Shown in pieces: positions 3,948-6,288 of a stretch of DNA of 64,000 nucleotides (positions within the stretch are counted from its first letter, which is position 1; each line of letters begins with the position of its first letter). The stretch is from Actinomycetota bacterium. Lineage in GTDB: Bacteria; Actinomycetota; Acidimicrobiia; Acidimicrobiales; RAAP-2. The stretch is from assembly GCA_009699875.1 (NCBI GenBank), contig WLNI01000002.1, forward strand, positions 62,001-126,000. Reading direction: 5' to 3'. Position numbers and translations under genes: made by a program. The notes below the pieces were generated by a model. It saw only the letters and a program-made list of their open reading frames with translations, was not told where the DNA came from and did no database searches.

Positions 3948-4008
3948 AGGTGCCCATGTTAGCCACAACGGCAGAATGGGCCAAGTCGAGGCACTACAAT
4001 GGAGACTA

Positions 4009-4044
4009 ATGAATACCACGACCAAGACCCTGCTGCTTCTCTGA
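4009..4044 (+). CDS. leuA leader peptide MNTTTKTLLLL
   Basis: GGAG at 4001-4004, ATG AAT ACC ACG ACC AAG ACC CTG CTG CTT CTC TGA; four consecutive Leu codons followed by hairpins and a U-tract, upstream of leuA. Confidence 0.85.
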   Translation: MNTTTKTLLLL

Positions 4045-4045
4045 G

Positions 4046-4124
4046 GCGAGCGCCACACTGCGCTCGCTAGTTCTCCTCCTGTGCCCATTGTGGCCAGGGG
4101 GTTTTTTATTGGGCCGACAATGGG
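4046..4124 (+). promoter_or_regulatory. leuA attenuator: hairpin, intrinsic terminator and pseudoknot-capable downstream arm
   Basis: GCGAGCG(4046-4052)/CGCTCGC(4061-4067); terminator CCTCCTG(4075-4081)/CAGGGGG(4095-4101)+T6; CCCATTGTGGCC(4084-4095)/GGCCGACAATGGG(4112-4124). Confidence 0.8.

Positions 4125-4144: not shown

Positions 4145-6288
<2,144 letters not shown>

Follow-up and report, generated by a model that had tools for sequence, protein, structure and literature searches.

A probable leucine-responsive attenuator ahead of leuA, with a leader plan shared across an actinobacterial order

Background

Attenuators of the E. coli trp, his and leu type and that of Corynebacterium glutamicum ilvBNC consist of a short open reading frame (ORF) that contains consecutive regulatory codons, an adjoining hairpin and a terminator before the biosynthetic gene, and their regulatory codons are biased, a known feature of attenuators that has been attributed to selective tRNA charging (PMC1183508). 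The leuA leader described here is like them in all these respects, but it has no coevolving antiterminator, its ORF is apparently leaderless, and its first hairpin, instead of overlapping the regulatory codons, starts beyond the stop codon.

Upstream of actinobacterial leuA genes, Seliverstov et al. (2005) reported the LEU element (PMC1262725), whose leader peptide likewise contains a Leu run. Its description includes a conserved pseudoknot and a base stem, formed by the Leu codons and the leuA Shine-Dalgarno (SD) sequence, but no terminator, and the genome list of that paper includes no Acidimicrobiia. A preliminary description of the present locus cited such elements upstream of actinobacterial leuA as a precedent; the leader found here differs from the published element in having two independent hairpins, the second of which is a terminator, and no conserved pseudoknot. 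Candidate attenuators of leuS and ilvB in Streptomyces, Mycobacterium and Corynebacterium (PMC1262725) resemble it in their leaders with branched-chain amino acid codons, their intrinsic terminators and the kinds of gene that they precede, and ilvB1 of M. tuberculosis has a comparable leader with branched-chain amino acid codons and an intrinsic terminator (PMC13236596). An antiterminator is part of the leuS cases published for Streptomyces (PMC1262725), whereas here none was found and the distance from stop codon to hairpin is fixed. Regulatory ORFs at the very 5' end of the transcript are known from mycobacteria, in the form of leaderless polycysteine ORFs (Canestrari et al. 2020, cited in PMC9031893), and from rnTrpL of Sinorhizobium meliloti, where a leaderless ORF is likewise combined with a terminator (PMC7298713); both differ from the present case in amino acid and downstream mechanism.

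Results and discussion

Structure of the leuA leader

The window is a 64,000-nucleotide stretch of the genome of an Actinomycetota bacterium of the order Acidimicrobiales, and the parts of the leuA leader lie on its forward strand. Searches with LeuA assign it to a genome of Acidimicrobiaceae type. The controlled gene is leuA (4169–5848), which encodes a 2-isopropylmalate synthase (NCBIfam TIGR00970, 796 bits against a cut-off of 697). The leader ORF at 4009–4044, already recognized in the preliminary description and evident from the sequence, reads ATG AAT ACC ACG ACC AAG ACC CTG CTG CTT CTC TGA and encodes the peptide MNTTTKTLLLL; matching ORFs are present in 175 leaders of other genomes and of this one. 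Its four Leu codons, CTG CTG CTT CTC, occupy 4030–4041, and codon -2, counted back from the stop, is the rare CTT.

Directly 3' of the stop codon lies hairpin 1 (4045–4068), whose arms GGCGAGCGC (4045–4053) and GCGCTCGCT (4060–4068) form nine base pairs, the outermost a G-U pair, around the loop CACACT. A hairpin after the stop had been proposed and is present, but not with seven pairs and a start one nucleotide after the stop as first described. It is followed by an intrinsic terminator at 4075–4101 with the arms CCTCCTG-T-GCC (4075–4085) and GGC-CAGGGGG (4092–4101) on either side of its loop, and then by six Ts (4102–4107), where the attenuated transcript is predicted to end; both stem and T-tract, as originally proposed, are borne out by sequence and fold, and the leuA ATG at 4169 is indeed downstream of them. 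RNAfold of 4009–4108 gave exactly hairpin 1 and the terminator (-34.2 kcal/mol, z -2.0). A simple terminator scan did not list the 4075–4101 terminator, probably owing to its bulged base.

We note three further points about the terminator region. Its 5' arm is kept across the order as CCUCCUG-N-GCC, with N mostly a pyrimidine, at window positions 4075–4085 and the same place in relatives, and this conservation exceeds what base pairing alone requires. In six Ilumatobacter-like leaders (L061, L064, L065, L067, L158 and L167) several bases separate the stem from the T-tract, and in these the second hairpin is perhaps something other than a standard terminator. L061 is the leader of Desertimonas flava, a cultured member of the Acidimicrobiia. 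A second ORF just past the U-tract (AGGAGG-N7-NTG) was considered and rejected: TTG, ATG or GTG stands there in 72 of 125 leaders, the frames vary in length and sequence, and the NTG is taken as part of the T-rich terminator tail.

Probable promoter and leaderless start

A -10-like hexamer, TACAAT (3995–4000), lies 8 nt before the leader start codon and is followed by GGAGACTA and then the ATG; the -35 region is weak, with no good hexamer. In relatives, -10 boxes peak at 6–10 nt ahead of the start codon (58 instances in a set of 163 leaders, against 0–2 at most other distances), with -35-like hexamers commonest at a spacing of 16–18 nt, and clear cases are seen at L003 (TTGACA-TAGCAT-ATG) and L008 (TATACT-GTG). 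The GGAG at 4001–4004, which had been taken for the SD site of the leader ORF, is doubtful in that role; it follows the -10-like hexamer, so the transcript probably starts at about 4007–4009 and the GGAG, lying between -10 box and transcription start, is probably untranscribed, and SD-like 4-mers precede just 19 of 171 leader starts. The position of the -10-like boxes thus points to a leader mRNA that is probably leaderless. In a few relatives (L044, L048) leuA starts within some tens of nucleotides of the T-tract, which leaves little room there for another promoter.

Conservation and covariation

The region upstream of leuA in relatives has the same plan in diverged sequence, and in the aligned relatives the leader directly precedes leuA. 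Our set of 175 distinct leaders has in common Leu-Leu-Leu, one more codon (usually Thr), a stop codon, a hairpin of 7–12 bp and an intrinsic terminator with a T-rich tail; the three Leu codons, at -4 to -2, and the tail must be read with the search pattern in mind, which itself demanded three Leu codons near the stop and a T-rich tail after the stem. Within the permitted offset of 0–2 nt from the stop, hairpin 1 begins at 0 nt in 116 leaders, at 1 nt in 58 and at 2 nt in one. Codon -1 is Thr in 115 and Leu in just 11, the window's among them, so that the run of regulatory codons falls one codon short of the stop in most relatives and abuts it in the window. Codon -2 is CTT (CUU) in 119 of the 175 (68%), whereas CTT makes up 5.1% of 2,688 Leu codons in leuA genes from a subset of the leader genomes; related genomes are not independent in this count, though the 397 genomes searched span some 60 families. 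The number and position of the Leu codons are constant across leaders while the other leader residues vary.

A covariance model, R1, built from 40 leaders matches 308 of the 397 genomes of the order, with one element each and rarely two, and 246 of the 292 genomes of good quality; the 89 genomes with no match may include some in which the contig in question is missing or the sequence has diverged too far for the model to recognise. In a phylum-wide draw 48 of 396 genomes were matched, 20 of them outside the order, mostly more weakly. When the 40 sequences were aligned independently with MAFFT, 9 of 19 pairs had changes on both sides (5 of the 9 in hairpin 1), with a covariation score of 0.189 against 0.127 for shuffled and at most 0.092 for slid partners; among 100 model-aligned sequences, an alignment that leans towards the structure, the figures are 14 of 19 pairs (9 of 9 in hairpin 1) and 0.314 against 0.155 and at most 0.077. 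Covariation of both stems and conservation of the Leu codons across leuA leaders, the comparison that the preliminary description had proposed as a check, are therefore both observed. Rfam 15 has no match in the window at the gathering threshold and only sub-threshold ones, mainly to sRNA families that match the hairpin and terminator, and no description of this leader class was found in Rfam or the open-licence literature; the leader is an uncatalogued variant of a kind of attenuator that is already known.

A probable transcription attenuator

We conclude that the leader is probably a leucine-responsive, ribosome-mediated transcription attenuator of leuA. The ORF, the fixed Leu codons, the rare-codon bias, the two covarying hairpins and the position before leucine genes all argue for this by comparison, and conservation, stem covariation and enrichment of the rare Leu codon lend strong support to the Leu-codon attenuator first proposed for this locus. 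Like known attenuators, it has consecutive codons for the product of the pathway, four Leu codons in the window, and an intrinsic terminator (4075–4107) between leader ORF and structural gene. With A and B denoting the 5' and 3' arms of hairpin 1, and C and D those of the terminator, no mutually exclusive antiterminator helix was found, A:C, B:C and leader:C having neither coevolution nor excess complementarity; for this reason we class the element as attenuator-like and not as a member of the classical three-helix group.

Transcription would start at the leader ATG or no more than about 2 nt away from it, and a ribosome would load on the leaderless 11-codon ORF. With ample Leu-tRNA it would clear the Leu codons and reach the stop, and transcription would end in the U-tract at 4102–4107; with scarce Leu-tRNA it would wait on the Leu codons, and RNA polymerase would read through into leuA. 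Most members of the order, which have the leader, thus probably shut down leuA under abundant leucine, if the leader arrangement is a guide to the direction of control.

The leading edge of a ribosome lies about 12 nt past the first base of the A site. A ribosome stalled on Leu would therefore reach just the base of hairpin 1, which would stay largely folded, whereas one at the stop codon would cover the whole 5' arm and open the hairpin; in the window, a stall at the fourth Leu codon would extend further into hairpin 1. The geometry of codons -4 to -2, spacer, stop and hairpin, together with this reach, leads us to prefer, with modest confidence, a mechanism that reads hairpin 1 itself. Its being folded or melted by the ribosome would decide either pausing or how closely a parked ribosome crowds the terminator, with no separate antiterminator helix. 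One possibility is a hairpin-stabilised RNA polymerase pause at CCUCCU|G; the spacing of this candidate pause site from hairpin 1 is mostly 9–12 nt, but the pause consensus calls for an upstream G, which is only weakly enriched. The broader proposal, that throughout the order the state of hairpin 1 alone decides termination by one of these two routes, and that such an attenuator serves leuA, ilvB and leuS, is tentative, and we regard it as possible rather than likely.

Alternative explanations

In the classical three-helix scheme, ribosome stalling would leave arm B of hairpin 1 available for pairing with arm C of the terminator. Such control is well established at other loci, for example at C. 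glutamicum ilvBNC (PMC11857589), and the window has a weak four-pair complementarity of the required kind, GCGC (4060–4063) with GUGC (4081–4084). Exchange of arms between leaders shows where partners have changed together: real arms pair at -18.1 kcal/mol in hairpin 1 against -13.3 when swapped, and at -18.8 against -15.8 in the terminator, while A:C, B:C, leader:C, leader:A and C with downstream sequence are all at chance, so that coevolution is confined to the two hairpins. B:C is also no stronger than with shuffled B, although a nearly constant B:C helix could escape the swap test, and shuffling of A strengthens its pairing with C and D: A:C and A:D lie above their own shuffle means in only 37 and 11 of the 175 leaders, which suggests selection for two independent hairpins. 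None of the antiterminator candidates A:C, B:C, leader:C and leader:A is thus supported in the swap and shuffle tests, and the 5' arm of hairpin 1 is 3' of the stop codon, so a Leu-stalled ribosome would mask little of it; the three-helix scheme is accordingly an unlikely account of this leader. Pairing of the Leu codons with the 3' arm of the terminator was also considered and rejected: it exceeds that of a shuffled Leu region, but random synonymous Leu codons pair more strongly.

The second alternative is an actinobacterial LEU element with a pseudoknot or alternative fold, in which Leu codons and the leuA SD form a base stem and which would affect translation or be the target of a protein. 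The reported element likewise has a Leu-run leader peptide (PMC1262725), and the complementary stretches singled out in the preliminary description, the terminator loop at 4084–4095 and GGCCGACAATGGG at 4112–4124, are found where it placed them; their pairing is strong (-21.8 kcal/mol, equalled by none of 200 shuffles and the strongest of the 175 leaders), and the fold of the read-through RNA in the window favours it. The pseudoknot or alternative fold built on them does not hold up, however: across the 175 leaders such pairing is at chance (10 at p <= 0.05, with 8.75 expected), it is not reached by six of seven close relatives examined and is absent in relatives of the genus, and arm swaps between leaders gave no coevolution of terminator and downstream sequence. 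The terminator stem, by contrast, is retained in 169 of the 175 leaders (186-nt fold), and a conserved intrinsic terminator is no part of the published LEU description (PMC1262725). To judge from these comparisons the loop-downstream pairing is at most a property of this genome, and a LEU element is very unlikely here.

A constitutive terminator that releases an sRNA or leader peptide with a role in trans, as with rnTrpL/peTrpL of S. meliloti, would fit a leaderless leader ORF that carries a terminator of its own (PMC7298713), but is most improbable as the main function, as the constant number and position of Leu codons amid varying residues indicates codon reading and not peptide function, and a trans role could exist in addition to attenuation.

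The same plan at other genes

Returning to the attenuator proposed for leuA, the same plan precedes ilvB in the same genome (G000 C2:58429-60108, locus L265), about 2–3.5 kb upstream of window position 1, where the leader ends LVVVP and is followed by a stop codon, at once by a 7-bp hairpin, and by a terminator; ilvB leaders of this plan occur in relatives as well (L264, L268, L269, L272, L273). The second LeuA family, TIGR00973, also has the leader, at L250 and L249 by family search and at L251, L252, L135 and L150 by sequence. Genome G160 has both LeuA types, each behind a leader (L148 and L249), and in G041, G043, G044 and G047 it is the second type that has the leader. In other classes the plan is found before leuS (L143, L152, L256), the reading frames of L143 and L152 being truncated and scoring slightly under the leuS cut-off, and before ilvB (L258); inspection by eye of leuS upstream regions in the close relatives examined gave no such leader. 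A further match in the same genome, C1:1451547 (E 0.67), was discarded, having neither a leucine leader nor a biosynthetic gene.

The element is thus a widely conserved, uncatalogued RNA element of genes for the synthesis of leucine and other branched-chain amino acids in a large, mostly uncultured actinobacterial order, and it raises the question of how a ribosome controls a terminator without a conserved antiterminator helix. Leaders of the same plan ahead of leuA (LLLT, stop, hairpin, terminator) are also present in two genomes labelled Rokuibacteriota and Methylomirabilota (L073 and L085), and reflect either transfer or mislabelled bins.
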